Assembly: GCA_009912175.1 (NCBI GenBank)
Contig: WNDQ01000016.1
Location: forward strand, 1 to 64,000
Direction of reading: 5' to 3'
Length of the DNA stretch: 64,000 bases
Source: Paracidovorax wautersii
GTDB lineage: Bacteria; Pseudomonadota; Gammaproteobacteria; Burkholderiales; Burkholderiaceae_C
Made by a program: the position numbers and the translations under genes. Position 1 is the stretch's first letter; each line of letters starts with the position of its first letter. Under the pieces are notes generated by a model. It was not told where the DNA came from and did no database searches. It saw only the letters and a program-made list of their open reading frames with translations. Shown piece after piece: positions 18,487 through 32,707 of the stretch.

Positions 18487-19770
18487 TTACGCGTAGCGGC
18501 CCGGCACCTTTTCTTGCTGCCCGGTCTTGACTGATGGGGGGCTCATCAGCTCGGACCGCTTCCTCAGAACGGCCATCAAGCCGCAGGCCACCAGAAGACC
18601 GACCAAGGAGGCCATCAGAAACGGCGCATAGCCACCGGTGAGGCGATAAGCCTGACCCATCAAGAATGGCCCCAGACCCGAACCCAGCATGAAGATCGCG
18701 AAAAAGTAACCGTAGATTTCGCCGAAGGCCCTCTGGCCGAAGTAGCGGGACTGCATGAATGCGATCAGGTCCACCTCGGCGCCCAAGCCCAGACCGACCA
18801 GAACCGCCGCGGCAAGCCCGAGATGGGCGCTGCCATCCACCAGCAGCAGTGCCACCCCGATCAGCGGCAGGCAGAAAAACAGAATGGCCACATAAGGCGC
18901 CGGGTAGCGGCCCAGCATCCATCCGGCAAAGATCCGACCAACCAGCAAAGACAGACCGGCAACACTGATCGCCACGGCAGCCGACCCCGGCGACACGCCC
19001 CGGTCCACCAGCAGCGGCACGATGTGGGCGATGACGCCAGAGACCGCCAGCGCCACCAGGAAAAATGAGCCGGCCATGACCCAGAAGACACTGCTGCTGC
19101 GCGCCTGTCTGGCAGACCAGCCCTGCAAGACCGGGGAGCCCGCAGGGTTGCCCAGGACCTGTGGCCTCCCACCCGCCGTTGCCCGAGGCGCAACCAGTAT
19201 CGTCAAGGCCGGCAAAGCGAGCAGGACCGTGATCAGACCGAGCCCGACATAGGTGCCCCGCCAGCCGAACTGGCTGAGCAGCGCGCTGGCAACCATGGGC
19301 ATGAGCATGGTCCCGATCCCGACGCCGGCCGTCGCTACGCCCAGCGCCAGGCCGCGCCTGCGGTCAAATGCGACCGCGATCGCCTTGCTGTAAGGCAGCG
19401 GCGTCTGTCCGGCCGCGAACACGCCACAAATGCCGTACAGCAGGATCAACAGGGTCACCGACTGGGCCAGCCACCCGCAGGCGGCCATGAGCAGCGCGAA
19501 CGCCAGGATGCAGACGATGCCGATGCGACGCACCCCATGCCGGTCCATCAAGCGGCCGATCCACGGCGTGGCCAGCCCCGTGGTGACCAGCCCGACCATC
19601 AGCGCGGTCGAAACCGTGCCGCGATCGGTGCCGAAGGCCTGGCTCAAGGGAATGATCAGGACGCCGAACGTGAACTGCATGACAGGGCCGTTTCCGACGA
19701 TCAGCGCCAGCAGCGCGCCGATGGCAATTCGCCAGGGAACGGGACTTTGGACTTGCGATGGGGTGTTCAT
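18487..19770 (-). CDS. MFS transporter, monocarboxylate/OFA-like
   Basis: The 427 aa protein has about twelve hydrophobic segments. The loop 2-3 signature appears as 'GRLMDRHGVRRIGIV' after 'TPWI' and again in the second half as 'GRIFAGWMLGRYPAP'. The overall pattern is like MCT/OFA-type carboxylate carriers widespread in Burkholderiales. It is the promoter-distal gene of a minus-strand catabolic run (SDR, ligase, amidohydrolase, thiolase, ECH), so it probably imports the acid that the ligase activates. That substrate is inference. The spacing to the ECH gene is 70 bases. Confidence 0.85.
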   Translation of the reverse strand: MNTPSQVQSPVPWRIAIGALLALIVGNGPVMQFTFGVLIIPLSQAFGTDRGTVSTALMVGLVTTGLATPWIGRLMDRHGVRRIGIVCILAFALLMAACGWLAQSVTLLILLYGICGVFAAGQTPLPYSKAIAVAFDRRRGLALGVATAGVGIGTMLMPMVASALLSQFGWRGTYVGLGLITVLLALPALTILVAPRATAGGRPQVLGNPAGSPVLQGWSARQARSSSVFWVMAGSFFLVALAVSGVIAHIVPLLVDRGVSPGSAAVAISVAGLSLLVGRIFAGWMLGRYPAPYVAILFFCLPLIGVALLLVDGSAHLGLAAAVLVGLGLGAEVDLIAFMQSRYFGQRAFGEIYGYFFAIFMLGSGLGPFLMGQAYRLTGGYAPFLMASLVGLLVACGLMAVLRKRSELMSPPSVKTGQQEKVPGRYA

Positions 19771-19840
19771 GAGTGTCTCCGGGTTATCGAGATCGGGATT
19801 CCGTCTCTTTCGTTCTTGAATGGGCTGGCCCGCCCTGGGG

Positions 19841-20620
19841 TCAATCGAATGCGGCGGTCGTCTTCTCCAGTCTCGCGAGGATGCCGCGCCGCTTGTCGTC
19901 GGTCGCGAACAGCAGTTGAAAGCTCTTGCGCTCGAAGGCCAGCCCGAGCGCCAACGGGCTGCTCATGCTCTCGAGCACGGCTTCCTTGATGAACTGCAGC
20001 GCCAGGCGCGGGCCTTGCGCCAGTTGGTCGGCCAGCGCGAGCGCACGCGCCTCCAGTGCCGCGTCGGGCACGACCTCGCTGGCCAGGCCCATGGCAAGCG
20101 CCTGGTCCGCCCCGAAACGCTCGCCGGTCAGCAGCAGCTTCATGGCACGGAACTTCCCGATGGCCCGGCTCAGCCGCTGCGTGGCGCCGCCCCCGGGCAT
20201 CAGGCCCAGCAGCACCTCGGGCTGGCCGAACCCCGCCGTGTCCGCCGCCAGCAGGATGTCGGCGTGCATGGCCAATTCGCAACCGCCGCCCAGCGCATGG
20301 CCGCGCACCGCCGCGATCACGGGCTTGCGGCAGGCGGCAATGGCATCCCACAGCCGGTCCATCTGGCGCTCGATGATGTCCGGCGCGGTGGCGTCGAGGT
20401 ACTAGTTGAGATCAGCGCCGGCGCAGAACGCGCGCGCACTGCCGGCCAGCACGACCACGCGCACGGTGGCATCCGCATCCAGATGGACAAAGGCCTCGGC
20501 CAGGGCGCGGCGCAACGCCAGGTTCAAGGCATTGAGCACCTCGGGCCGGTTCAGGCGCAGCACCGCCACGCCGGGGCGGGGATGCTCAAGCAGCAGGATG
20601 GGCTCATAGGGATCGCGCAT
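19841..20620 (-). pseudogene. Enoyl-CoA hydratase/isomerase, interrupted by an in-frame TAG
   Basis: Crotonase-fold enzyme (about 259 aa corrected). The N-part 'ILLLEHPRPGVAVLRLNRPE' to 'FCAGADLN' ends at TAG (20402-20404), and the same frame continues 'YLDATAPDIIERQMDRLWDA' to the end. The oxyanion-hole segments 'ARAFCAGADLN' and 'GHALGGGCELAMHADI' are both present, as is the 'FGQPEVLLGLMPGGGATQRL' acid/base helix. Start at the ATG at 20620, with GAAAGG upstream, 10 bases after the thiolase stop. TAG sits where an acidic or polar residue would follow 'GADLN' and is one substitution from a sense codon. It is either a point nonsense mutation or a sequence error. The reaction in the cluster is probably hydration or ring-opening of a CoA ester. 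Confidence 0.8.
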
Positions 20621-20630
20621 GGCCGGCCTT

Positions 20631-21836
20631 TCAGACACGCTCGATCGCCAGTGCGATGCCCTGCCCCACGCCGATGCACATGGTGCACAGCGCGCGGCGC
20701 CCGCCCGTGCGCTGCAGTTGGCGCAGCGCTGTCAGGGCCAAGCGCACACCCGACATGCCCAGCGGATGGCCAAACGCAATCGCGCCTCCGTTGGGATTCA
20801 CATGCGCGGCGTCATCGGGCAGTCCCAGCTGGCGCAGCACGGCCAGGCCCTGCGCCGCAAACGCTTCGTTGAGTTCGACCACATCGAAGTCGGCAATATG
20901 AAGGCCGGTCTGCGCCAGCAGCTTGCGCACGGCGGGCACCGGGCCGATGCCCATCACACGCGGCGCCACGCCGGCCGTGGCAACGCCGATCACACGGGCC
21001 AGCGGCACGAGGCCCGCACGGGCGGCCCCCGCTTCGCTGGCCATCAGCAAGGCGGCCGCGCCGTCGTTCACGCCGGAGGCGTTGCCGGCCGTGACAGTGC
21101 CATGGGGGCGGAAGGCCGGCCTGAGCTTGGCCAGCGTCTCCAAGGTGGTGTCGGGACGCGGATGCTCGTCCTGGCTGAACAGGCGCATCTCGCCCTTCTT
21201 GGCAATGTCGGGCACGGGCACGATCTCGGTGTCGAACAAGCCGGCCGCCATCGCCCTGGCCGCACGCTGCTGGCTGCGCAGCGCGAAGGCATCCTGGTCG
21301 GCGCGGGAGATGCCGTGCTCGTCGGCCACGTTCTCGGCCGTTTCGCCCATCGCGTCGATGCCGTAGAGCTGCGCCATCCGTGGGTTGACGAAGCGCCAGC
21401 CGATGGTGGAGTCATGGACCTCGGCATGGCGGCTGAAGGCAGCGCTGGCCTTGGGCATGACCAGCGGCGCGCGGCTCATGCTTTCCACTCCGCCGGCGAT
21501 CGCCAGGTCCAGCTGGCCCAGGGCGATGCCGCGTGCCGCGCTGGCAATGGCCTCCAGGCCCGAGCCGCACAGCCGGTTCACCGTGGCCGCCGCCGCCGTG
21601 ACGGGCAGGCCGGCCAGCAGCGCGCTCATGCGGGCCACGTTGCGGTTATCTTCACCCGCCTGGTTCACGCAGCCGAAAAAGACCTCTTCGAGTTGGCCCC
21701 AATCCAGGCGCGGGTGGCGCGCCATCAGCGCCTGCAGCGGGATCGCGCCCAGGTCGTCGGTACGGATGCCCGAAAGCGCGCCGCCATAGCGGCCGATGGG
21801 CGTGCGCAGCCCGTCGCAGATGTAGGCGTGGCCCAT
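20631..21836 (-). CDS. Beta-ketoadipyl-CoA thiolase-like acetyl-CoA acyltransferase (PcaF family)
   Basis: The 401-aa thiolase has the full set of residues: Cys nucleophile in '[13 protein letters not shown]', His in '[14 protein letters not shown]' and the C-terminal acid/base Cys in '[11 protein letters not shown]'. The N-terminus '[19 protein letters not shown]' and the '[21 protein letters not shown]' block match PcaF. This predicts cleavage of 3-oxoadipyl-CoA to succinyl-CoA plus acetyl-CoA. Its ATG overlaps the amidohydrolase stop by one base (TGATG). A close paralogue lies at 29178-30380 with pcaI/J. The copy here has no CoA-transferase beside it, but it has a CoA ligase, so its substrate is probably made as a CoA ester from the start. 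Confidence 0.9.
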
Positions 21837-22678
21837 CACAGCCCCAGCACCCGCTCGGCGTTGCCGTGCATGACTTTCTCCATCACCGCGTCGCTGTAGC
21901 CCAGCTCGGCCCATTCGCGCAGGATGCGCTCGTAGGGCAGGCTGGGATAGTCGCTGCCGAACATGATCTTGTCCTGCAGGCGGCCACGGATGTCGACCTT
22001 GAGGTTGCCTGGAAAGTACTTGGGCGCCCAGCCCGACATCTCCCAATACACATTGCCCTTGTGCAACGCCACGGCCGTGGTCTCGTCCACCCACGGCCAG
22101 CCCGGGTGGGCCATGATGATCTTCAGGTGCGGGAAGTCCGCCGCCAGATCGTCGATGGCGCCGGGGTGGGCATGGCGGATGCGCGCGCCATGGCCGCCGG
22201 GCATGCCGGCGCCCATGCCGGTCGTGCCTACGTCGATCATCACCGTCGCGCCCAGCGCATTGATCTCCTCGAACAGCGGGTAGTAGCGCCGGTCGTTGAC
22301 CGCGAAGTGCTGCATGATCGGATGGAAGTGAAAGCCGATGAAGCCCAGTTCGGTGACAGCCTTCTTCACCTGGCGGATCGCGATCTCGCCCTTGGCCGGC
22401 TCCACCGCGCCCCAGCATTGCAGGATGCGGTCGGGGTGGCGCTGCCAGATGCCGTGCACGTACTCGTTGGTGCAGGGCGGGCTGGCCACGGTGGTCTCCA
22501 GGTCGAGCGCCACCAGGCAGGCCTGGACGCCAGCCGTGGCGAACTCCTGGATGACCTCGTCCTCGGACTTGCCCACCCAGTCCCGTTTCCAGTAGGTGGC
22601 CAGCGCCTCGGGATAGGGGCCCTGGGATTCGATCCAGGTGGATGTTCCGGGATAGCAGTGCAGATCGATGATGCGCAT
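21836..22678 (-). CDS. Amidohydrolase-2 (ACMSD-like TIM-barrel) hydrolase/decarboxylase
   Basis: The 280-aa TIM-barrel of the amidohydrolase-2 family includes decarboxylases such as ACMSD and gamma-resorcylate decarboxylase, and lactone or ring hydrolases. Seen: 'IIDLHCYPG' at the N-terminus, '[15 protein letters not shown]' in the middle, '[16 protein letters not shown]' (metal His) and '[16 protein letters not shown]' (catalytic Asp region). In most members the first motif is HxH; here it reads HxY. Metal binding may therefore be altered. The gene is inside the catabolic cluster between the ligase and the thiolase. A ring- or C-C-cleaving or decarboxylating role in the pathway is inferred. 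Confidence 0.85.
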
Positions 22679-22716
22679 GGCGCGCGTCGCTTTCGTGGTC
22701 AGAAATGGAACGGGGT

Positions 22717-24390
22717 TCAGGCGGCCCTGGCAACGCGAGCCTCGTCGGCCAGTTGAGCGGCGATCCGCTCGCCCAACGCCTTCTTGGACACCTTGCCGAA
22801 GGTCGAAACCGGAAAGTCCTCCATGACCTCCAGCCGCTCGGGCAGCTTGAACCGGGCGATCTCGTGCGTCTGCAGAAAGGCCACCAGCCCGGGCAGATCC
22901 AGCGCGGCGCCGCGCTTGAGCACCACGAAGGCGCACATCTTTTCGCCCATCGCGGCATCGGGCATGGGCACACAGGCCACGTTCTGCACGGCCGGGTGCA
23001 TGAGGATGAGGTTCTCGACCTCCTCGGCGCTGATCTTCTCGCCGCCACGGTTGATCAAGTCCTTCTTGCGGCCTTCGACGATGTAGTTGCCCGACGCATG
23101 CCGGCGCATCAGGTCGCCCGAGCGGTAGAAGCCGTCCGGCGTGAACTGGCGCGCGTTGTATTCGGGGACGCCGAAGTAGCCGCGCAAGGTGTAGGGCCCC
23201 CGGCAGGCCAGTTCGCCAACCTCGCCCTCAGGCACCTCGCGGCCCTCGTCGTCGATCAGCCTGACCTCGTCGTCCTCGCAGACTGGACGCCCGCAGGTCT
23301 CCAGCTGGACCGTTTCGTCGTCGCCACGGCGCACGAACATCAACAGGCCCTCGCTCATGCCGAAGTTCTCCTGCACGAAAGCGTTGCGGAACAGCTCGCG
23401 CGTGCGCAGACGCACTTCGGGCTGCATGCGCTGGCCGCCGCTCTGGATCTGGCGCACCGAGTCGAGCCGGGCGCTGCCGATGGCCGGGTCATGGATCAGG
23501 CGGATCAGCAGCGCGGGAACGACCTTGATGTGCGTCACGCCGTGCTGCTCGATCAGCGCAAACATCTCGGCCGGGCGTGTGTTGGCGTGCAGCACCACGG
23601 TCGCCCCGTTGAACAGAAACCCCTGGATGCCCGGGCAGGCCAGCGGCAGGTTGTGCGCGATGGGCAGCACCAGCAGCAGGACCGAATCGCCGTCCACCCC
23701 CGCCACCTCGGCCGCCACCTTGGAGTTGTAGGCATAGTCGTTGTTGGTGCGCGGAATCAGCTTGGGAATGCCCGTGGTGCCGCCCGAGAGCTGGAAGATG
23801 CACGGGTCGGTGGGCTTGATGTTCAGCTCGCGCAATCTGGACAGCGGCAGCTTCGCGGGACTGGCAATCAGTTCGGTCAGCGAATGCTCGCCGGGGCCGG
23901 CCTCGCCCAGCACCAGGCGCAGCTGCAAACAGGGCTGCTCGGCCTGCACACGGTCGATGACGGGCGCGAAGCGGAACTCGCCACCTTGCTCGCGCACCGA
24001 GGCCGGGTACACCACGCAGCGGGCCTGCGACAGGCGCACGAACTGGCTCAGTTCCGCATAGCGGTGCGTGACCAGCGCCGCGATGGGGATACAACCCAGC
24101 TTTTGCAGCGCGAAGTACAGCACCACGAACTCGGCCACATTGGGCAAGGTGGGCACGACACGGTCCAGCGGCTTGAGGCCCAGCGCCAGCAGGTTGAGCG
24201 CCAGGTTGTCGCTCAGCGCGTCGAGCTGCGCGTAGGTGTAGCGGCGCGCGCCGTCGATCAGCGCCGTGCGTGGCCCGTAGCGCTCGAACACCGCCGCAAA
24301 CTCCTGCGCCAGTGACTGGCCGCGCCAGTAGCCCCGCTCACGGTAGCGCTGGGCGAACGACTCGGGGAATGGGACGAATCCTTCCAGCAT
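22717..24390 (-). CDS. EntE/DhbE-like aryl-acid adenylating enzyme (probable aryl-CoA ligase)
   Basis: ANL-superfamily adenylating enzyme. '[19 protein letters not shown]' matches the opening of DhbE/EntE-type 2,3-dihydroxybenzoate-AMP ligases. The P-loop is '[17 protein letters not shown]', the aryl-binding segment is '[16 protein letters not shown]' (AHN as in EntE), A8 is 'YRSGDL' and the A10 Lys is in 'GKVSKKAL'. The ATG at 24390 with AAAGGAAC before it is preferred over the ATG at 24408, which overlaps the SDR stop. No aryl carrier protein, isochorismatase or NRPS gene is near, and the neighbours are catabolic. It most likely forms a CoA thioester of an aromatic or cyclic acid. It is about 557 aa, the normal length. 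Confidence 0.88.
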
Positions 24391-24407
24391 GGTCTGTTCC
24401 TTTCCCA

Positions 24408-25168
24408 TCAGGTCGATGCCGTGAAACCGCCGTCGATCACCACCACTTCGCCCGTGACGAAGCGGTTGGCCGTCAGCAGATTGACCATCACCTCGGCCAC
24501 GTCATCGGCGGTCACGCAGCGGCGCAGCGACGTGAGCTTGGCGCGCTTGCCCATCAGGTCCTCGTACTTGTCGCCCAGCATGCGCTCCATCCATTCGCCC
24601 TCCATCCAGCCGGGGGCGACGGCATTCACGCGGATCTCCGGTCCCAGATTCCAGGCCAGGGTCTTGGTCAGGTTGACGACGGCGGCCTTGCTGGCGGCAT
24701 AGGGCAGCGGCTGCGGACCGGGGCGCAGGCCCACAATGCTGGCCGTGTTGACGATGGCCGGCTCCACGCCCTTGCGCAGCAGGGGAACGGCGGCACGGGC
24801 CACCTGGAAAGTGCCGCGCACATTGACGGCGAAGGTGCGGTCCCACTCGGCCATGTCCAGGCTTTCAAGGTCCCGGACCTTCCAGGTGGCGGTCGTTCCG
24901 GCGTTGTTGACCAGCGCGTCGAGGCGGCCAAAAACCTCGCCGATGGCGGCCAGCGTGCGCCGCACCGCCGCATCGTCGGCGACGTCGCACTGGAGCACCA
25001 GCGTCCTGGCGCCCAGGGCTTCGGCCTCGCCGGCCACGGCCTGCGCGGCCGCCGCGCTGGAGCCATAGACGATGGCCACGTCGAAATTGGCGCGGGCCAG
25101 CGCCAGGACCGCGCTGCGGCCAATGCCGGTGGCACCACCGGTGACGAGGGCTTTTTCCGGTCGGTCAT
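24408..25168 (-). CDS. EntA-like SDR dehydrogenase; start codon out of frame by one base
   Basis: Short-chain dehydrogenase with cofactor loop 'VTGGATGIGRSAVLALARA', 'NNAGTT', catalytic Ser in 'VNTASIVG' and YxxxK in 'LPYAASKAAV'. The expected start is the ATG at 25168 behind a GGGGGAGG Shine-Dalgarno, reading MTDRKK. The body is in another frame from that point. One additional A in the A-run at 25152-25156 (five present) gives 'MTDRKKALVTGGATGIG', exactly the family opening. The body can be read upstream to 25271, but those 44 residues have no similarity. The lesion therefore removes only the first codons, unless it is a sequencing error. Partner of the EntE-like ligase; it possibly oxidises a cyclic hydroxy-acid or dihydrodiol CoA ester. 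Confidence 0.8.
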
Positions 25169-25203
25169 CACTGGCCTCCCCCGTTGCGCGAAAAGCGGTG
25201 CAT
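25168..25203 (-). CDS. Possible 11-codon leader ORF coupled to the SDR start
   Basis: An ATG at 25203 follows 'aaggagacattc', a strong Shine-Dalgarno. It encodes MHRFSRNGGGQ and ends in TGA, whose last base is the first base of the SDR ATG (TGATG). The arrangement is that of a coupled leader peptide. It may be a real upstream ORF controlling the cluster, or simply the original start of a longer SDR reading frame. Confidence 0.35.
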   Translation of the reverse strand: MHRFSRNGGGQ

Positions 25204-25298
25204 GAATGTCTCCTTGGTTTCGGGTTGTGCGTCCAATGTAGGAAGCGCCCCTTGCCGGCAGAAGATGGCAAAAAACCGCCGCTGATTCGCTTTTGATA

Positions 25299-25310
25299 TC
25301 TCCCTGGAGA
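25299..25310. promoter_or_regulatory. Candidate LysR operator between SDR and LysR genes
   Basis: TCTCC-CT-GGAGA is a perfect interrupted palindrome in the divergent intergenic region and satisfies a T-N11-A spacing. It lies 68 bases before the LysR start and 131 bases before the SDR ATG, which fits a regulator that controls itself and the divergent cluster. Pattern evidence only. Confidence 0.35.
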
Positions 25311-25377
25311 AAACCCCTATGCCTGGTTATCGCCGGACAGGGAAGATCAGGCCGGTCCAACCTGCGCGCCTGCCACC

Positions 25378-26271
25378 ATGAAACTGAGCCAACTTCGTGA
25401 CCTGACCTGCATCGTCGAGACAGGAAGCCTGCGGGCCGCGGCGCGGCGGCTGGACGTGGCCCAGCCCTTGCTGACGCGCAGCATCCGGAGCCTGGAGAAG
25501 GAGTTGGGGACTCCGCTGTTCGAGCGGCAGTCGACGGGCATGGTGCTGACGCCGCTGGGCCAGCGCTTCTACGAGCGGGCCCGCGTCGTGACCAATGAGC
25601 TGCGCCGCGCCGGGGAAGAGTTGCTGCAGGCGCAAGGCAATGCCACGGGAACGGTGACAGCCGGGCTGTCGATCATGCCCCACATGGGCATGCTGCCCCG
25701 GGCGCTGCCCGCGTTTCGCAAACGTTTTCCAGCGGTTCGCCTGCAGCTGGTCGAAGGCCTGTTTCCCGATCTCGAAGAGGACTTGAGAAAAGGCGACATT
25801 GACTTCTACATGGGCGTCACGCCCACGGTCGTGCCCCCCGGCTTTGTGCGCGAACGCCTGTCCGGCAACACCCGGGTGGTGATGGCGCGCAAGGGGCACG
25901 CGCTCGGCGGTGCACGTTCGTTCGCCGAGCTGGTCCAGGCCGAATGGGCCTTGCCGGCCGTGGACTACCACAGCGAGCAGGACCTGATTTCGATCTTCGA
26001 GAAACGGGGGCTGCCGCCGCCGCGGGTCGCCCTGCAGGCCCGCACCGCGCTGTCGATGATGGTGACCCTCACGAGCACGGATCTGCTGGCGCTGCTGCCC
26101 ATGCAATGGGTGGGATTCGCCCAGTTGCGCGCGAGCGTTCAGCCCATCTTGCTGGATGAACAGCTCGCCGCACCCGACATCGTGCTCATCCGGCGCAGCG
26201 GCCTGCCGATGACGCTGGCCGCCGAGCACCTGTGCGATCTGCTGCGCCGGGAGATCGGCCCGGCCGGATGA
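25378..26271 (+). CDS. LysR-family transcriptional regulator of the adjacent ring-acid cluster
   Basis: The 297-aa regulator has an N-terminal winged HTH ('LCIVETGSLRAAARRLDVAQ'-like region, then 'PLLTRSIRSLEKELGTPLFERQ') and a C-terminal LysR substrate-binding domain (about residues 90-295). It is divergent from the SDR-ligase-amidohydrolase-thiolase-ECH-MFS run with 209 bases between the SDR and regulator starts. That is the usual geometry of a pathway-specific activator. The inducer is unknown and would be the substrate acid or its CoA ester. It is followed on the same strand by trmL 29 bases later, which is unrelated. Confidence 0.88.
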   Translation: MKLSQLRDLTCIVETGSLRAAARRLDVAQPLLTRSIRSLEKELGTPLFERQSTGMVLTPLGQRFYERARVVTNELRRAGEELLQAQGNATGTVTAGLSIMPHMGMLPRALPAFRKRFPAVRLQLVEGLFPDLEEDLRKGDIDFYMGVTPTVVPPGFVRERLSGNTRVVMARKGHALGGARSFAELVQAEWALPAVDYHSEQDLISIFEKRGLPPPRVALQARTALSMMVTLTSTDLLALLPMQWVGFAQLRASVQPILLDEQLAAPDIVLIRRSGLPMTLAAEHLCDLLRREIGPAG

Positions 26272-26300: not shown

Positions 26301-26804
26301 ATGTTCAACATCGTCCTGGTCCACCCCGAGATCCCGCCCAACACGGGTAACGTCATCCGCCTGGCCGCCAACACGGGCTGCCGGCTGCATCTGGTCGAGC
26401 CGCTGGGCTTTTCCATGGACGACAAACACATGCGCCGTGCGGGTCTCGACTATCACGAATACGCCGACCTGCAGCGGCACGCCAGTTGGGACGCCTTTCT
26501 GGCGCGCGAACAGCCCGACGCCGGCCGTGTCTTTGCGCTGACCACGCGCGGCACGCAGGCCGTGCACGGCCAGGCCTTTCAGCCTGGCGACTGGCTGGTG
26601 TTCGGCTCCGAAACCGCCGGTCTGCCGCCGGCCATTCGCGAGACCATCGCCGCCGCGCAATGGCTGCGGCTGCCCATGCGTGCGGGCCAGCGCAGCCTGA
26701 ACCTGTCCAACGCGGTCGCGGTGACGGTGTTCGAGGCCTGGCGCCAGAACGGCTTTGCGCAGGCGGCGACGACAGCGGGCACGTCGCCCGCATCCGCTCA
26801 GTAA
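26301..26804 (+). CDS. trmL: tRNA (cytidine(34)-2'-O)-methyltransferase
   Basis: SPOUT-fold methyltransferase modifying the wobble base of tRNA-Leu. The ATG at 26301 opens 'MFNIVLVHPEIPPNTGNVIRL', the family signature. The knot region is 'PGDWLVFGSETAGLPPAIRE', followed by 'RSLNLSNAVAVTVFEAWRQ'. At 167 aa it is full length. It converges on and overlaps the MaoC gene by 7 bases at its 3' end. Confidence 0.95.
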   Translation: MFNIVLVHPEIPPNTGNVIRLAANTGCRLHLVEPLGFSMDDKHMRRAGLDYHEYADLQRHASWDAFLAREQPDAGRVFALTTRGTQAVHGQAFQPGDWLVFGSETAGLPPAIRETIAAAQWLRLPMRAGQRSLNLSNAVAVTVFEAWRQNGFAQAATTAGTSPASAQ

Positions 26805-27250
26805 TAACGGATCAAGGACTCGGCCACGCACACGGGCTTGGCATGGCCTTCACGTTCGAAGGTCGCCTCCCAAGTCAGTTGCAGGCCCTGCGTGCCAGCG
26901 GGCTCCGTGGCCAGCAGCTTAAAGTGCGCGCGCACGCGGCTGCCGGCCGGCACCGGGGCCGGAAACCGAACCCGATCCAGCCCGTAGTTGACGGCCATGC
27001 GCGGCTCGGTCAACACCACGGCCTGCGACATCAGGCTGGGCAGCAGCGACAGCGTCAGAAAACCGTGCGCGATGGTGCCGCCAAAAGGCCCGGCCTTGGC
27101 GCGTTCGGGGTCGACGTGGATCCACTGGCGGTCGCCCGTGGCGTCGGCAAAGGCGTTGATCTGCGGCTGCGTCACCGTGACCCAGTCGCTGCTCGCCACA
27201 TCCTGGCCGACGCGGGCTGCAAGATCGGCCAGGGTCTGGAAAGTTGCCAT
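26798..27250 (-). CDS. MaoC-family (R)-specific enoyl-CoA hydratase
   Basis: The 150-aa hot-dog-fold protein has the Asp/His dyad of MaoC hydratases in 'FADATGDRQWIHVDPERA', followed by 'FGGTIAHGFLTLSLLPSL', the family's second motif. It hydrates trans-2-enoyl-CoA to (R)-3-hydroxyacyl-CoA. Size and sequence match NodN/PhaJ-type proteins common in Burkholderiales. It is not tightly coupled to the Bug/SDR/thiolase genes upstream on the strand; the gap to the Bug gene is 87 bases. Whether it serves that cluster is uncertain. Confidence 0.88.
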   Translation of the reverse strand: MATFQTLADLAARVGQDVASSDWVTVTQPQINAFADATGDRQWIHVDPERAKAGPFGGTIAHGFLTLSLLPSLMSQAVVLTEPRMAVNYGLDRVRFPAPVPAGSRVRAHFKLLATEPAGTQGLQLTWEATFEREGHAKPVCVAESLIRYY

Positions 27251-27337
27251 GTCGTTCTCCTGCCATCAAATATGGTGGCAGTCTGCCCGATCCCCGCGCA
27301 GCGTGCGCAACACGCCTGTCACCCGGTCGACAAAAAA

Positions 27338-28351
27338 TCAATCCACGCGGGCGCCCGAGGCCTTGACCACCTCGGCCCACTTGGCCGTTTCGCTGCGCAT
27401 GAAGGCGGCGAACTGCTCGGGGGATTCAGGGTGCGCCTCGGCGCCTTGCTCGGCAAACTTCTTGACGACAGCCGGGTCATTCAAGCCCTTGACGATGGCC
27501 GCGTTCAGGCGGGTAACCACGGCGGGCGGCGTGCCGGCCGTCGTGTACAGGCCGAACCACGAAGTCGCCTCGTAGCCGGGCACGCCAGCTTCGGCGATGG
27601 TGGGCACATCCGGCAGTTCAGGCGAACGTTTGGCCGAGGTCACGGCCAGCGGCACCAACTTGCCGGCGCGCACGTGGGCAATCGCCGAGGGCATGTTGTC
27701 GAACATCACGGCGATCTGGTTGCCCAGCAGGTCGGCCACGGCCGGCGCGCTGCCGCGGTAGGGCACGTGCTGCATGTCGACCTTGGCCAGGCTCTTGAAC
27801 AGTTCGCCCGACAGGTGGATGGAGCTGCCGCTGCCCGACGAACCGAAGGTGACGGCGCCCGGATGCGCCTTGGCGTAGGTGATGAGCTGCGGCACGGTCT
27901 TGAACGGCTGCTGCGGATTGGCCACCAGCAGATTGGGCACCATGGCCACGCGCGAGAGCGGAACGAAGTCCTTGACCGGGTCGTAGGGCAGCTTGCTGTA
28001 GAGCGAAGCATTGATCGCGTGCGTGCCCACCGTGCCCATGAACAACGTGTAGCCGTCGGCCGGCGCGCGCGAAGCCGCCTGCGCGCCGATGTTGCCGCCC
28101 GCGCCCGCGCGGTTGTCGACCACCACGGGCTGGCCCAGCTCGGTGCCCAGGTACTGGCCCATCACACGCGCCAGGATGTCGGTGGTGCCACCGGCCGAGA
28201 ACGGCACGATCAGCGTGATCGGCTTGCCCGGGTAGGCCGCCTGCGCCGAGGCAGTGGTGGGCGCCAAGGCCGCCACGGACAGCGCGGCGGCGGCGGCCAG
28301 CCACGCGCGGCGCGGGAAGGTGGTGGTGAAGAAGGGTTGTGTCGCGGTCAT
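27338..28351 (-). CDS. Bug-family tripartite tricarboxylate transporter solute-binding receptor
   Basis: The 337-aa periplasmic receptor carries a signal peptide ('LAAAAALSVAALAPTTASAQ') and 'YPGKPITLIVPFSAGGTTDIL', the N-terminal Bug motif. Later landmarks are 'VVDNRAGAGGNIGAQ', 'SSGSGSSIHLSGELFK' and 'VPTIAEAGVPGYEATSWFGL'. The start at 28351 gives an optimal signal. No TctA/TctB membrane genes are adjacent, as is typical of orphan Bug receptors in this order. It sits distal in a minus-strand run with an SDR and the PcaF/J/I genes, so the ligand may be a dicarboxylate or aromatic-derived acid. Confidence 0.92.
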   Translation of the reverse strand: MTATQPFFTTTFPRRAWLAAAAALSVAALAPTTASAQAAYPGKPITLIVPFSAGGTTDILARVMGQYLGTELGQPVVVDNRAGAGGNIGAQAASRAPADGYTLFMGTVGTHAINASLYSKLPYDPVKDFVPLSRVAMVPNLLVANPQQPFKTVPQLITYAKAHPGAVTFGSSGSGSSIHLSGELFKSLAKVDMQHVPYRGSAPAVADLLGNQIAVMFDNMPSAIAHVRAGKLVPLAVTSAKRSPELPDVPTIAEAGVPGYEATSWFGLYTTAGTPPAVVTRLNAAIVKGLNDPAVVKKFAEQGAEAHPESPEQFAAFMRSETAKWAEVVKASGARVD

Positions 28352-28428
28352 GCTTGTCTCCAGGTCGGAAATGAAGGGGGGCACCGGTTCTGCGCCGGTG
28401 TTGGTCAAAAGAAAAAACAGCAAAAAAA

Positions 28429-29181
28429 TCAGACGCCGGCCACGCCCACGGTCATGCCGCCGCACACGTACAGCACCTGCCCGGTGACAAAGCCGCTGCG
28501 CGCATCCAGCAGGTAGGCGGCGGCATGCGCCACGTCGTCGGGCGTGCCCACACGGCGCACTGGCACTGACTCGATGATGGCGCGCGTGCGCGGTGCGTCG
28601 GGCGGGTTGGCGCGGTCGAACAGCTCGGTGCGGATCGGGCCGGGGCCGATGGCGTTGGCCGTGATGCCCAGCGGGCCCAGCTCCAGCGCCCACACGCGCG
28701 TCATGCCCAACAGCCCGGCCTTGGTCGCGGCATAGGCCGTGCGCAATTCCTTGCCCAATGCCGCGCGTGAGGCCATGTTGACGATGCGCCCGAAGCCCGC
28801 CGCCTTCATGCCCGGCAGCAGGCCCTGCATGCACAAAAAGGCGCAGCGCAGATTGAGCGAGACGGCCAGGTCGAACTCTTCGAGCGTCTGGCTGGCCGCA
28901 TCGGCCGGGCACACCACGCCCACGTTGTTGACCAGGCGTGTGATCGGGCCGCCGGCCAGCGCTTCATCGAGCGCCCGCCGCACCTGCGCGGCATCGGACA
29001 GGTCGGCCTGAATGGCGCCCGCGATGCCTTCGACCTGGCGGTCGATCACCACGGGCTCGTAGCCCTCGTCGCGGCAGCGCTGGGCAATCGCCGCGCCGAT
29101 GCCGGCGGCGCCGCCGGTGATCAGCACACGCTCGGCGTGCTCGCCCCGGTGGTGTGTCGAGGGGGAAACGGTGCCCGTCAT
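28429..29181 (-). CDS. SDR-family oxidoreductase (FabG/3-hydroxybutyrate-dehydrogenase-like)
   Basis: The 250-aa dehydrogenase has 'VLITGGAAGIGAAIAQRC' (nucleotide loop), 'RLVNNVGVV', a catalytic Ser region 'RIVNMASRAALG' and YxxxK in 'TAYAATKAGLLGM'. The ATG at 29181 overlaps the upstream thiolase stop in an ATGA. It therefore belongs to the pcaI-pcaJ-pcaF unit. Its job beside beta-ketoadipate genes is unclear; it may oxidise a hydroxy-acyl-CoA or a ring alcohol feeding the thiolase. There is no internal lesion. Confidence 0.88.
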   Translation of the reverse strand: MTGTVSPSTHHRGEHAERVLITGGAAGIGAAIAQRCRDEGYEPVVIDRQVEGIAGAIQADLSDAAQVRRALDEALAGGPITRLVNNVGVVCPADAASQTLEEFDLAVSLNLRCAFLCMQGLLPGMKAAGFGRIVNMASRAALGKELRTAYAATKAGLLGMTRVWALELGPLGITANAIGPGPIRTELFDRANPPDAPRTRAIIESVPVRRVGTPDDVAHAAAYLLDARSGFVTGQVLYVCGGMTVGVAGV

Positions 29182-30380
29182 ACGCGCTCCAGAATCACGG
29201 CGATGCCCTGCCCCACGCCGATGCACATGGTGCACAGCGCATAACGCCCGCCCGTGCGATGCAACTGGTTGACGGCCGTGGTCGCCAGCCGCGCGCCGCT
29301 GGCGCCCAGCGGGTGGCCCAGCGCGATCGCGCCGCCGTTGGGGTTGACACGCGCATCATCGTCGTCCAGACCGAGCTGGCGCAGCACCGCCAGCCCCTGC
29401 GCGGCGAAGGCTTCGTTGAGTTCAATCACGTCGATCTGGTCGAGCGTGAGACCCGTCAGCGCCAGCACCTTGCGTGTCGCCGGCTCCGGGTCGATGCCCA
29501 TGATGCGTGGTGCCACACCGGCCGTGGCCATGCCGACCACGCGGGCGCGCGGCGTCAGGCCGTGCTGGCGCGCGGCCTCGGCGCTGGCCAGCACCAGCGC
29601 GCAGGCGCCGTCGTTGACGCCGCTGGCGTTGCCGGCCGTGACGCTGCCGTCGGGCTTGACCACGGGCTTGAGGCGGGCCAGCGCTTCGAGCGTGGTCTCG
29701 CGCGGATGTTCGTCGCGGTCGACCACGATGGGTTCGCCCTTTTTCTGGGGCACGCTCACGGGCACGATCTCGGCGTCGAACACGCCGGCCTGCTGCGCCG
29801 CCAGCGCCTTGGCCTGGCTGGCCAGCGCCATGCGGTCCTGCGCCTCGCGCTCGATGCCGTAGTCGGCCGCGACGTTCTCGGCGGTCTCGGGCATGGCGTC
29901 CACGCCGTACTGCGCCTTCATGAGCTTGTTGACGAAGCGCCAGCCGATGGTGGTGTCGTAGACCGCGTTGCTGCGCGAGAAGGCCGACTCGGCCTTGGGC
30001 AAGACGAAAGGCGCGCGGCTCATGCTCTCGACGCCGCCGGCGATCATGAAACGCGTCTCGCCGCTGCGGATGGCGCGCGCGGCCGTGCCCAGCGCGTCCA
30101 GGCCCGAACCGCACAGGCGGTTGACGGTGGAGCCCGGCACGCCAACGGGCAGGCCGGCCAGCAGCGCCGACATGCGCGCGACGTTGCGGTTGTCCTCGCC
30201 GGCTTGGTTGGCGCAGCCGAAGATCACGTCGTCCAGCGCCTGCCAGTCGGCCTGCGCGTTGCGCTGAATGAGGGCACGGATGACGTGTGCGCCCAGGTCG
30301 TCAGGGCGGATGCTGGACAGCGCGCCGCCGTAGCGGCCAAAGGGGGTGCGAACGGCATCGCAGATGAAGGCGTCTTGCAT
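29178..30380 (-). CDS. pcaF: 3-oxoadipyl-CoA thiolase
   Basis: The 400-aa thiolase has the nucleophile in '[16 protein letters not shown]', '[17 protein letters not shown]' and the C-terminal '[11 protein letters not shown]'. The PcaF-specific opening is '[20 protein letters not shown]', followed by '[21 protein letters not shown]'. Directly downstream of pcaIJ (15 bases), it completes the last two steps of the beta-ketoadipate route: CoA transfer to 3-oxoadipate, then thiolysis to succinyl-CoA and acetyl-CoA. A paralogue of the same family lies at 20631-21836. Confidence 0.93.
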   Translation of the reverse strand: MQDAFICDAVRTPFGRYGGALSSIRPDDLGAHVIRALIQRNAQADWQALDDVIFGCANQAGEDNRNVARMSALLAGLPVGVPGSTVNRLCGSGLDALGTAARAIRSGETRFMIAGGVESMSRAPFVLPKAESAFSRSNAVYDTTIGWRFVNKLMKAQYGVDAMPETAENVAADYGIEREAQDRMALASQAKALAAQQAGVFDAEIVPVSVPQKKGEPIVVDRDEHPRETTLEALARLKPVVKPDGSVTAGNASGVNDGACALVLASAEAARQHGLTPRARVVGMATAGVAPRIMGIDPEPATRKVLALTGLTLDQIDVIELNEAFAAQGLAVLRQLGLDDDDARVNPNGGAIALGHPLGASGARLATTAVNQLHRTGGRYALCTMCIGVGQGIAVILERV

Positions 30381-30395
30381 GGTGTCTCTCTGGAA

Positions 30396-31067
30396 TTAAG
30401 AAGCGGGTGGCGTGAGTGGTGCGATCGGCAGACCCACGATGTCTTCGAGCGCCGCCAGCGACAGCCCCTCGACCGTGTCGATCAGTTGCAGGCCCTGCGG
30501 CGTGCAGGCGAAGGTGGCCAGGTCGGTGTAGACACGCTTGACGCAGCCGATGCCGGTCAGCGGATAGGTGCAGCGTTCAACCAGCTTGCTGGCGCCCTGC
30601 TTGGTCAGCAGGTCCATCATGATCCAGGTCTGCTTGGCGCCGATGGCCAGGTCCATGGCCCCGCCCACGGCCGGGATGGCACCGGGCTCGCCCGTGCTCC
30701 AGTTGGCCAGATCGCCCGTGGCCGAGACCTGGAAGGCCCCCAGCACGCAGATGTCCAGGTGGCCGCCGCGCATCATGGCGAAGCTGTCGGCGTGGTGAAA
30801 GAAGGCGCCGCCCGGCAGCAGCGTCACGGGCTGCTTGCCGGCGTTGGTGAGGTCGTAGTCCTCGTGGCCAGCCTCGGGCGCCGGGCCCATGCCCAGGATG
30901 CCGTTCTCGCTGTGCAGCACCACTTCCAGCCCGGGCGGCAGGTGGTTGGCCACCAGCGTCGGCATGCCGATGCCCAGGTTGACGTAGGCGCCATCGTGAA
31001 TGTCCTGCGCCACGCGCCGGGCCAGTTCGTCCTTGCCGCGCTTGCGGTAGGTGGGTTGTTCAGCCAT
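30396..31067 (-). CDS. pcaJ: 3-oxoacid (3-oxoadipate) CoA-transferase subunit B
   Basis: The 223-aa beta subunit of a class I CoA-transferase has the catalytic Glu in 'LEVVLHSENGILGMGP' and the family's opening 'RRVAQDIHDGAYVNLGIGMP'. The start is at the ATG at 31067 because 'aaggaga' precedes it by 8 or so bases. An in-frame ATG at 31085 overlaps the pcaI stop (ATGA) and is an alternative. With pcaI it moves CoA from succinyl-CoA to 3-oxoadipate; acetoacetate transfer (AtoA-like) cannot be excluded from sequence. The PcaF neighbour and PcaR-type regulator favour oxoadipate. Confidence 0.92.
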   Translation of the reverse strand: MAEQPTYRKRGKDELARRVAQDIHDGAYVNLGIGMPTLVANHLPPGLEVVLHSENGILGMGPAPEAGHEDYDLTNAGKQPVTLLPGGAFFHHADSFAMMRGGHLDICVLGAFQVSATGDLANWSTGEPGAIPAVGGAMDLAIGAKQTWIMMDLLTKQGASKLVERCTYPLTGIGCVKRVYTDLATFACTPQGLQLIDTVEGLSLAALEDIVGLPIAPLTPPAS

Positions 31068-31081
31068 GTCCGTTGTCTCCT

Positions 31082-31732
31082 TCATGCCTTGAAGCCGCCC
31101 GCGCGTGTGGCCACGCGCGCCACCTGCACCACACGCTGGACGTGGATGCCCGGCGTGACGATGGCTTCGGGGTCGAGCGCACCCAGCTCGCAGACCTCGT
31201 GCACCGTCGCGATGGTGGTGCGCGCGGCGGTCGCCATCACCGGCCCGAAGTTGCGCGCCGACATGCGGTAGGTCAGGTTGCCCCAGCGGTCGCCGCGCTC
31301 GGCCTTGATCAGCGCGACGTCGCCGTGGATCGGGTACTCCAGCACGTAATGGCGGCCGTCGATCTCGCGTGTTTCCTTGCCGCGCGCCAGCTCGGTCCCA
31401 TAGGCCGTCGGGCAGAAGAAAGCGCCGATGCCGGCCCCGGCGGCGCGCAGACGCTCGGCCAGGTTGCCCTGGGGCACCAGTTCGAGCTCGACGCGGCCGC
31501 TGCGGTAGAGCGCGTCGAACACGTGCGAGTCGACCTGGCGCGGAAAGCTGCAGATCACCTTGCGCACCTGGCCGACCGCCAGCAGCGCGGCCAGGCCGTG
31601 GTCGCCGTTGCCGGCGTTGTTGTTGACCACCGTCAGGTCGCGCGCGCCCTGCGCGATGAGGCCGTCGATGAGCTCGGCCGGAATGCCGGACGTGCCGAAT
31701 CCGCCGATCAGCACGGTCGAGCCGTCGCGCAC
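31082..31732 (-). CDS. pcaI: 3-oxoadipate CoA-transferase subunit A, N-terminus cut by an in-frame stop
   Basis: The alpha subunit has 'DGSTVLIGGFGTSGIPAELI' (CoA-binding loop), 'VVNNNAGNGDHGLAALL' and 'PTAYGTELARGKETREIDG'. The natural start appears to be the ATG at 31777 (MINKLVPSVA). Codon 11 is then TAA (31745-31747), after which the same frame continues 'ALRDVRDGSTVL' to the end. The stop is one base from GAA or CAA. A GTG at 31732 could restart translation with 15 residues missing. The gene should therefore be 31082-31777 (231 aa) if the stop is a sequence error. pcaI leads the pcaI-J-F-SDR-Bug unit and is divergent from the IclR regulator. Confidence 0.85.
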   Translation of the reverse strand: MRDGSTVLIGGFGTSGIPAELIDGLIAQGARDLTVVNNNAGNGDHGLAALLAVGQVRKVICSFPRQVDSHVFDALYRSGRVELELVPQGNLAERLRAAGAGIGAFFCPTAYGTELARGKETREIDGRHYVLEYPIHGDVALIKAERGDRWGNLTYRMSARNFGPVMATAARTTIATVHEVCELGALDPEAIVTPGIHVQRVVQVARVATRAGGFKA

Positions 31733-31833
31733 GTCGCGCAGGGCTTAGGCCACGCTGGGCACCAGTTTGTTGATCATGCCGGGGGTCTCCATCGATCCAG
31801 GGTTTGCCCTGGAACTTGTCGGGGATGATTTTG

Positions 31834-31874
31834 CGATAATGTTCGATATACGAATAAATGTTCATGGAAAGAAC
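31834..31874. promoter_or_regulatory. Candidate PcaR/IclR operator between pcaI and its regulator
   Basis: AT-rich patch in the 99-base divergent gap. CGATA repeats directly with a 10-base period (31834 and 31844). GTTCGATATACGAA (31841-31854) carries TTCG/CGAA arms and resembles, from memory, the GTTCGATAATCGCAC site of PcaR. GTTC-N7-GAAC follows at 31860-31874. IclR-family PcaU/PcaR bind such 10-base repeats near the pca promoter. It probably contains both divergent promoters. Confidence 0.5.
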
Positions 31875-31876
31875 GA

Positions 31877-32707
31877 ATGGATTCTAAAGACGACCCCCAT
31901 CCAGCGCCAGACACGCCATCTCATGGATTACCCGCACCCGGCGACAGCTATGTGCAGTCCTTCGCGCGCGGGCTGGCGGTGATCCGCTCCTTCTCGGCCG
32001 AGGCGCCGCAGCAGACGCTGTCCGAGGTCGCGCAGCGCGCGGGCCTGACGCGCGCGGGCGCACGCCGCATCCTGCTGACGCTGCAGACGCTGGGTTATGT
32101 GAACTCCGACGGCCGGCACTTCCGGCTCACGCCGCGCATCCTCGCCCTGGGTTTTGCCTACCTCTCGTCCACGCCCGTGTGGGACCTGGCCGAGCCGGTC
32201 ATGGCCGACCTGGTGGACGAGGTCAAGGAATCGTGCTCGATCGCCGCGCTGGACGGCACCGACATCGTCTACGTGCTGCGTGTGCCCACGCAGCACAAGA
32301 TCATGCGCATCTCGCTGGCCGTGGGCTCGCGCCTGCCGGCGGCCTACACCTCCATGGGCCGCGTGCTGCTGGCCCACCTGCCACCCGCCGAGGCCCGCGC
32401 CGTGCTGCAGGCCTGCGACCTGCGCGCGCGCACGCGCCATTCGCTGACCGACGTCGACGCGCTGTGCGAACAGCTGGCCCAGATCCGCAAGCAGGGCTGG
32501 GCGCTGGTCAACCAGGAGCTGGAAGAAGGTTTGATCTCGGTGGCCGCGCCCCTCACCAACGCGCGCGGCGAAGTGCGCGCGGCCATCAACGTCAGCGGCC
32601 AGGCCAACCGCACCAGCGCGCGGGCGATGCAGCAGACCCTCCTGCCGCCGCTGCGCGCGGCCGCCAGGAAGATCTCGCAACTGCTGCAAAGCAGCGGCGC
32701 CTACTGA
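31877..32707 (+). CDS. pcaR: IclR-family regulator of the beta-ketoadipate genes (PcaR/PobR type)
   Basis: The 276-aa regulator has an N-terminal winged HTH ('LSEVAQRAGLTRAGARRILLTLQTLGYVNSDG', about residues 50-85) and an IclR effector-binding domain after 'FRLTPRILALGFAYLSS'. That opening of the effector domain is typical of PcaR/PcaU/PobR/CatR members. It is divergent from pcaI with repeats in the 99-base gap. In relatives the effector is beta-ketoadipate or a protocatechuate-type acid. The ATG at 31877 is the only good start. The gene leaves 31 bases to the DUF1841 gene. Confidence 0.88.
   Translation: MDSKDDPHPAPDTPSHGLPAPGDSYVQSFARGLAVIRSFSAEAPQQTLSEVAQRAGLTRAGARRILLTLQTLGYVNSDGRHFRLTPRILALGFAYLSSTPVWDLAEPVMADLVDEVKESCSIAALDGTDIVYVLRVPTQHKIMRISLAVGSRLPAAYTSMGRVLLAHLPPAEARAVLQACDLRARTRHSLTDVDALCEQLAQIRKQGWALVNQELEEGLISVAAPLTNARGEVRAAINVSGQANRTSARAMQQTLLPPLRAAARKISQLLQSSGAY

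Follow-up and report, generated by a model that had tools for sequence, protein, structure and literature searches.

The window analysed here comprises 64,000 nucleotides of Paracidovorax wautersii DNA (assembly GCA_009912175.1, contig WNDQ01000016.1, positions 1 to 64,000 of the forward strand), and at positions 18487-26271 it carries a gene cluster built around an acid ligase related to EntE and DhbE, a short-chain dehydrogenase/reductase (SDR) and an amidohydrolase. The genes are located on the minus strand in the order SDR, AMP ligase, amidohydrolase, PcaF-like thiolase, enoyl-CoA hydratase and major facilitator superfamily (MFS) carrier, with a LysR gene diverging on the plus strand. The SDR gene (24408-25168), matching Pfam adh_short_C2 and generic NCBIfam SDR models, encodes a predicted beta-hydroxyacyl-CoA dehydrogenase. 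It is followed by the core genes for an EntE/DhbE-like acid-CoA (or AMP) ligase (22717-24390; TIGR02275, 497 bits) and for an amidohydrolase-2 protein of the amidohydrolase superfamily (AHS; 21836-22678; PF04909), a predicted beta-ketoacyl-CoA C-C hydrolase with a remodelled metal site. Further along the strand are a PcaF-like 3-oxoadipyl-CoA thiolase (20631-21836; TIGR02430, 679.9 bits), the PRK08138-like enoyl-CoA hydratase ECHb (19841-20620), interrupted by a TAG codon, and an MFS carboxylate-type carrier (18487-19770; MFS_1). The LysR-type regulator (25378-26271; HTH_1, LysR_substrate) completes the set.

The gene coordinates of an initial annotation of this DNA were correct, and the MFS carrier, PcaF-like thiolase, amidohydrolase-2, EntE/DhbE-like ligase and divergent LysR that it listed are all present with intact reading frames. 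The listed enoyl-CoA hydratase gene is also present, but its frame is not intact, codon 73 being TAG; this nonsense codon and a frameshift in the SDR gene had both been overlooked. Of the EntE/EntA-like pair from which that annotation started, the ligase stood, whereas the SDR matched generic NCBIfam models only. As first noted, no carrier protein, non-ribosomal peptide synthetase (NRPS) or isochorismatase was seen in the cluster, and PP-binding (carrier-protein) and condensation motifs, the two types scanned for more widely, were absent from the 1,249 open reading frames of 80 homologous neighbourhoods.

These 80 loci were gathered from named genomes, and presence counts were based on the 54 betaproteobacterial loci with at least 4.5 kb of flanking sequence on each side. 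The ligase adjoined the amidohydrolase in 54/54 loci and the SDR was nearby in 51/54, so that ligase, SDR and amidohydrolase make up the core. Other genes found near the amidohydrolase were those for a tripartite tricarboxylate transporter (TTT) binding protein (39 loci), ECHb (34), LysR (33), a second hydratase, ECHa (28), and the thiolase (28), with a hydratase of some kind in at least 34/54. The PcaF-like thiolase, the two hydratases, LysR and the MFS or TTT (Bug) carrier are thus variable extras: the Castellaniella locus has thiolase and MFS without a hydratase, the Pigmentiphaga kullae locus has the core but neither thiolase nor hydratases, and on Sphaerotilus and Acidovorax plasmids a carboxylesterase gene is inserted in the cluster. 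Orthologues of the MFS carrier were located in the Comamonas, Castellaniella and Aquabacterium loci. When 251 genomes of the family were searched with the amidohydrolase as query, close orthologues were identified in 7 other genomes, with ligase and SDR adjacent in all of them; together with the 80 loci retrieved, this shows that the gene set is no chance arrangement. Relatives with an intact cluster include Comamonas sp. BIGb0124 (L049) and Castellaniella defragrans (L052). In a sparse phylum-wide sample of 399 genomes, no orthologue was detected outside the genome of the window at the strict cut-off of E≤1e-110.

The ligase is of the DhbE-like type, not a feruloyl-CoA synthase, and its closest relatives of solved structure were salicylate- and 2,3-dihydroxybenzoate (DHB)-AMP ligases. 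It scored below the curated cut-offs of TIGR02275 (2,3-dihydroxybenzoyl-adenylate synthase; 497.3 vs 723.55 bits) and NF008192 (471.4 vs 783 bits). Phylogenetically, a strongly supported branch separated the clade of cluster ligases from that of the siderophore enzymes, the root being unsure owing to long outgroup branches. The position of DhbE Tyr236 was occupied by Leu in 72/72 cluster ligases, Asn235 was retained in 71/72, and Cys240, as in salicylate enzymes, in 72/72. Additional invariant changes in the same region (DhbE numbering) were 305 V to S, 329 V to N and 339 Y to F, and the cluster ligases also differed from the siderophore enzymes at positions 308, 333 and 338. Given the DhbE structure, the changed positions presumably line the acyl pocket. 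Judged by its sequence, the ligase is a distinct variant with a changed acyl pocket and a clade of its own. With EntE, DhbE, PchD and MbtA it shares the ligase fold and most core motifs, whereas the separate clade, the changed DhbE positions and the lack of a carrier, NRPS or EntA set it apart. Elsewhere in the same genome (L041, G000:C37:65000-84000) a siderophore-type aryl-AMP ligase gene is located beside that of a 1330-aa NRPS comprising condensation, adenylation, carrier and thioesterase domains. Another locus (L108:14519-16156) has, near its cluster copy, a second DhbE-like ligase that shares 46% identity with that of the window and branched outside both the cluster and the siderophore clades.

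The amidohydrolase was 35% identical over its full length (288 residues) to a protein annotated as 4-hydroxyphenyl-beta-ketoacyl-CoA hydrolase in Rhizobium sp. Q54 (E 1e-58 within a small local collection; E 9e-41 when plasmids were searched). The cluster of the Rhizobium hydrolase contains feruloyl-CoA synthase, SDR and hydratase genes, and the same set was present on two further alphaproteobacterial plasmids. We read the annotation as designating the type of Atu1421, a likeness drawn from the annotation. Among looser relatives within the family (loci L012-L033), the amidohydrolase was closest to the hydroxycinnamate type in 21/22, and a hydratase and a feruloyl-CoA synthase were within about 1.5 kb in 13 of these loci. 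Since Variovorax SRS16 and Rhodococcus opacus pair related amidohydrolases and an SDR with other ligase types, the arrangement suggests a module with exchangeable ligases. Against PDB sequences, the sole strongly significant match was the uncharacterised BB4693, and no decarboxylase matched at E≤0.001. Modelling with AlphaFold2 from 33 close homologues gave a low-confidence structure (pLDDT 65.5), whose Foldseek neighbours were LigJ, ACMSD and decarboxylase-type amidohydrolases, a placement which does not decide the reaction.

Of the remaining enzymes, the SDR contains the motifs TGxxxGIG, NNAG and YxxxK; its top NCBIfam matches were glucose 1-dehydrogenase and FabG subfamilies, and the EntA/DhbA model was not among the 25 best. 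The thiolase exceeded the TIGR02430 (pcaF) cut-off (679.9 vs 597 bits) and has the catalytic Cys/His motifs CGSG, GHP and CIG. The best matches of the MFS carrier, all of them weak, were lactate, bile-salt and oxalate/formate carriers.

The best reading of the operon is a variant of hydroxycinnamate beta-oxidation-like chemistry, which serves the breakdown of plant phenolic acids, with a swapped ligase. On balance we consider it probable that the genes form a module that degrades a small carboxylic acid, apparently a ring-shaped or hydroxylated one, in a beta-oxidation-like manner. The acid would be taken up by the MFS carrier, or with the TTT binding protein in relatives, and the ligase would form its CoA thioester. 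A beta-hydroxyl, either pre-existing on the substrate or added by a hydratase, would be oxidised by the SDR to a beta-ketone, after which the amidohydrolase would cut the beta-ketoacyl-CoA at a C-C bond, and the PcaF-like thiolase and hydratases would convert the resulting acyl-CoA to central CoA esters. LysR would control the operon via the divergent intergenic region. The data establish what the genes are, how far they are conserved, that the amidohydrolase is related to beta-ketoacyl-CoA hydrolases and that the ligases form a clade; the substrate, the order of the steps and the use of CoA by the ligase we infer. Ring opening, as proposed in the initial annotation, would result from the amidohydrolase step if the beta-ketone were inside a ring. 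Three findings support the broader initial view of CoA-dependent acid degradation in place of siderophore synthesis: the cluster is conserved without siderophore genes, the genome has a separate siderophore ligase and NRPS, and the amidohydrolase is homologous to beta-ketoacyl-CoA hydrolases.

Several observations weigh against this degradative module. The SDR shares only about 29% identity with the hydroxycinnamate SDR, a level that unrelated SDRs also reach; the thiolase and hydratases are missing near the core in many loci; and CoA as acceptor of the ligase is a prediction. In the amidohydrolase, the second His of the HxH motif is Tyr9 and the His of column 149 is Asp in 81/81 cluster proteins, whereas 26/26 hydroxycinnamate-type enzymes have His at both positions. 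New invariant His residues replace Lys117, Tyr169 and Asn171, and His7, His119, His191 and Asp243 are retained. The metal site is rewired, and beta-ketoacyl-CoA hydrolysis is therefore a best guess, not a demonstration; the reaction may differ.

The module has named precedents. In Agrobacterium fabrum, ligase Atu1416 acts first, followed by hydratase Atu1417, dehydrogenase Atu1415 and finally Atu1421 (PMC7797058), and in the Cou pathway of Rhodococcus jostii RHA1 the last deacetylation step is performed by CouO of the amidohydrolase superfamily (PMC4737184). As in these hydroxycinnamate pathways, a CoA ligase, an SDR, a hydratase and a homologous amidohydrolase-family beta-ketoacyl-CoA hydrolase are clustered here, whereas the present cluster differs in its DhbE-like ligase, unrelated hydratase subfamilies, LysR instead of MarR, extra PcaF-like thiolase and changed metal ligands. 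In piperine degradation by Rhodococcus ruber, PipU, PipV, PipW and PipX were all required in vitro for an analogous conversion, and this four-enzyme beta-oxidation-like module with CoA ligation resembles the hydroxycinnamate enzymes (PMC12753220). Unlike the present cluster, it is actinobacterial and acts on piperic and cinnamic acids; the likeness is drawn from the published description.

A tentative, more specific form of the same chemistry takes the substrate to be an alicyclic 2-hydroxy acid, shaped like salicylate. Its 2-hydroxyl would be the beta position for oxidation by the SDR, and the amidohydrolase would then open a 2-oxocycloalkanecarboxyl-CoA ring, which is the job of BadI, a protein of the unrelated crotonase fold. 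The residues of the ligase are in line with this, as Asn235 and Cys240 of the salicylate-AMP ligases are kept while the aromatic residue 236 is Leu, although the roles of these pocket residues are presumed from the DhbE structure; a pcaF-type thiolase would also fit a dicarboxylyl-CoA. Three differences separate the cluster from the bad-ali cyclohexanecarboxylate pathway (AliA, AliB, BadK, BadH, BadI), and the first two speak against an alicyclic substrate: no acyl-CoA dehydrogenase is present in the cluster, the ligase is not AliA, scoring far below the cut-off of the AliA model TIGR03208 (234.4 vs 792.3 bits), and the hydrolase belongs to the AHS rather than being a crotonase-fold BadI. Common to both are the ligase, hydratase, SDR and hydrolytic beta-ketoacyl-CoA cleavage, and the bad pathway has the same order of hydration, oxidation and hydrolytic cleavage (PMC9795900).

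About as likely as this salicylate-shaped alicyclic acid, and equally tentative, is a cinnamate-type substrate, in which case the side chain of an arylpropenoic or aryl-beta-hydroxy acid would be shortened to give an aromatic acid and acetyl-CoA. In function, the amidohydrolase has its nearest homologues among hydroxycinnamate enzymes, many of the clusters contain hydratases, and some have a carboxylesterase. Yet the ligase falls in the DhbE group for benzoate- and salicylate-sized acids and not among the feruloyl-CoA synthases, the cluster hydratases reach only about 33% identity with the hydroxycinnamate hydratase, and the active site of the amidohydrolase is altered.

Somewhat more doubtful is the far-reaching proposal that the amidohydrolase represents a new catalytic type in its superfamily, its metal site rewired by the exchange of His9 for Tyr and His149 for Asp and by the added residues His117, His169 and His171, and hydrolytically opens a 2-oxocycloalkanecarboxyl-CoA ring made available by a CoA ligase derived from salicylate ligases and the SDR; the operon would then encode a widespread betaproteobacterial pathway for alicyclic hydroxy acids without the crotonase-type BadI.

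That the amidohydrolase cleaves a beta-ketoacyl-CoA at a C-C bond is more likely than the decarboxylation of the initial proposal, although the altered metal site leaves room for decarboxylation. As a full alternative, with the enzyme acting as a decarboxylase or lyase on an aromatic acid, in the manner of 2,6-dihydroxybenzoate decarboxylase, LigW or ACMSD, and the CoA genes handling the product, it appears unlikely. The Foldseek placement of the low-confidence model gives a fold group common with these decarboxylases and LigJ, and the metal site differs from that of the hydrolases; however, sequence similarity to the LigJ type is weak, the PDB search returned no decarboxylase at E≤0.001, and the full-length match is to beta-ketoacyl-CoA hydrolases instead. 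Finally, a role of ligase and SDR in the synthesis of a siderophore or another aryl-peptide, which the position of the ligase as sister group of the siderophore aryl-AMP ligases might favour, is highly improbable and was rejected, as neither a carrier nor a condensation motif occurs in the 80 neighbourhoods, the SDR is not of the EntA type, and the genome has its own siderophore ligase adjoining an NRPS elsewhere.

The initial statement that no named pathway has this gene set holds for the literature searched, but the core chemistry has named precedents in the Cou, Atu1415-1421 and Pip systems. Searches of titles and abstracts on the gene set, SdgA-type salicylyl-CoA pathways and Castellaniella monoterpene degradation returned no match, which does not prove that no such paper exists. 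The operon is conserved and apparently unnamed, and not categorically new, though tractable as a pathway. Freshwater and soil lineages are among the many Burkholderiales and further betaproteobacteria that carry it, and it combines a siderophore-type ligase, apparently recruited into catabolism, with an amidohydrolase-family C-C hydrolase of altered metal site. Identification of the substrate would name the pathway for a set bearing only generic family names, and would also fix labels assigned automatically, for instance 2,3-dihydroxybenzoate-AMP ligase.

The copy of the module in this genome is probably impaired and perhaps decaying, because the SDR gene is frameshifted, ECHb contains a nonsense codon, and ECHa (PRK09245 type) is missing from the cluster, as it is likewise in several other loci. 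The likely start of the SDR is the ATG at 25168, which is associated with a Shine-Dalgarno-like sequence and reads MTDRKK as in the relatives. The frame is lost at codon 7 by a 1-base frameshift in the A run AAAAAG (25151-25156), with five A in place of the six in a relative (L048); the relatives stay in frame through the conserved RKKALVTGG. The site reads CGG AAA AAG, where a -1 slip would recover the frame; this does not amount to evidence for programmed frameshifting. In ECHb the in-frame TAG is located at 20402-20404, i.e. codon 73 counted from 20620. Since the position is Glu in 42/42 aligned homologues, one G-to-T change accounts for the stop. The only other ECHb stop flagged (L062) is upstream of that gene's own start. 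In comparison with a genome of the same genus (L049), the ratio of nonsynonymous to synonymous substitution rates (dN/dS) was 0.20 for ECHb, against a range of 0.07-0.14 in the five further genes compared, and any inactivation would therefore be recent. Both lesions may also originate from assembly errors, above all the indel in the A run.

Between the SDR and LysR genes, a candidate operator GATATCTCCCTGGAGA was identified at 25295-25310, with a 12-bp palindrome at 25299-25310. It is located inside an intergenic block that is kept in the orthologous Comamonas and Castellaniella loci, and the sequence has a single match in the window, with 0.20 expected by chance when at most one mismatch is allowed. 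The LysR protein probably acts on this conserved block with its palindrome.

The genes flanking the cluster vary. In Pelomonas sp. KK5 (L034:1708-6554), the SDR gene has two genes ahead of it in the same direction, for a Rieske oxygenase and a YCII-domain protein; L087 carries near-identical Rieske and YCII genes at a distance of about 8-10 kb from its cluster. AndAc/AndAd-like ring-hydroxylating oxygenase genes flank the cluster in Burkholderiales metagenome-assembled genomes (L066, L067, L085 and L100), where the flanks also contain a luciferase-like monooxygenase gene, a fumarylacetoacetate-hydrolase-family gene and a glutamine-synthetase-like gene. The nearby oxygenases, Rieske in L034 and L087 and AndA-like in the uncultured Burkholderiales, were considered as a clue to the substrate and dismissed, as they differ between lineages. 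Among deeper betaproteobacteria (L103, L112, L118 and L124), the ligase and amidohydrolase are accompanied by at least one of an M24 creatinase-like gene, a D-2-hydroxyacid-dehydrogenase-like gene and a second amidohydrolase; these names were assigned by eye, and an NCBIfam search matched none of those tested. In the window itself, a second catabolic gene set adjoins the cluster at 26798-32707, with genes for a MaoC dehydratase, a TctC/Bug binding protein, a further SDR, a second PcaF (724.9 bits to PRK09050), two PcaIJ-like CoA-transferase subunits and a divergent IclR.

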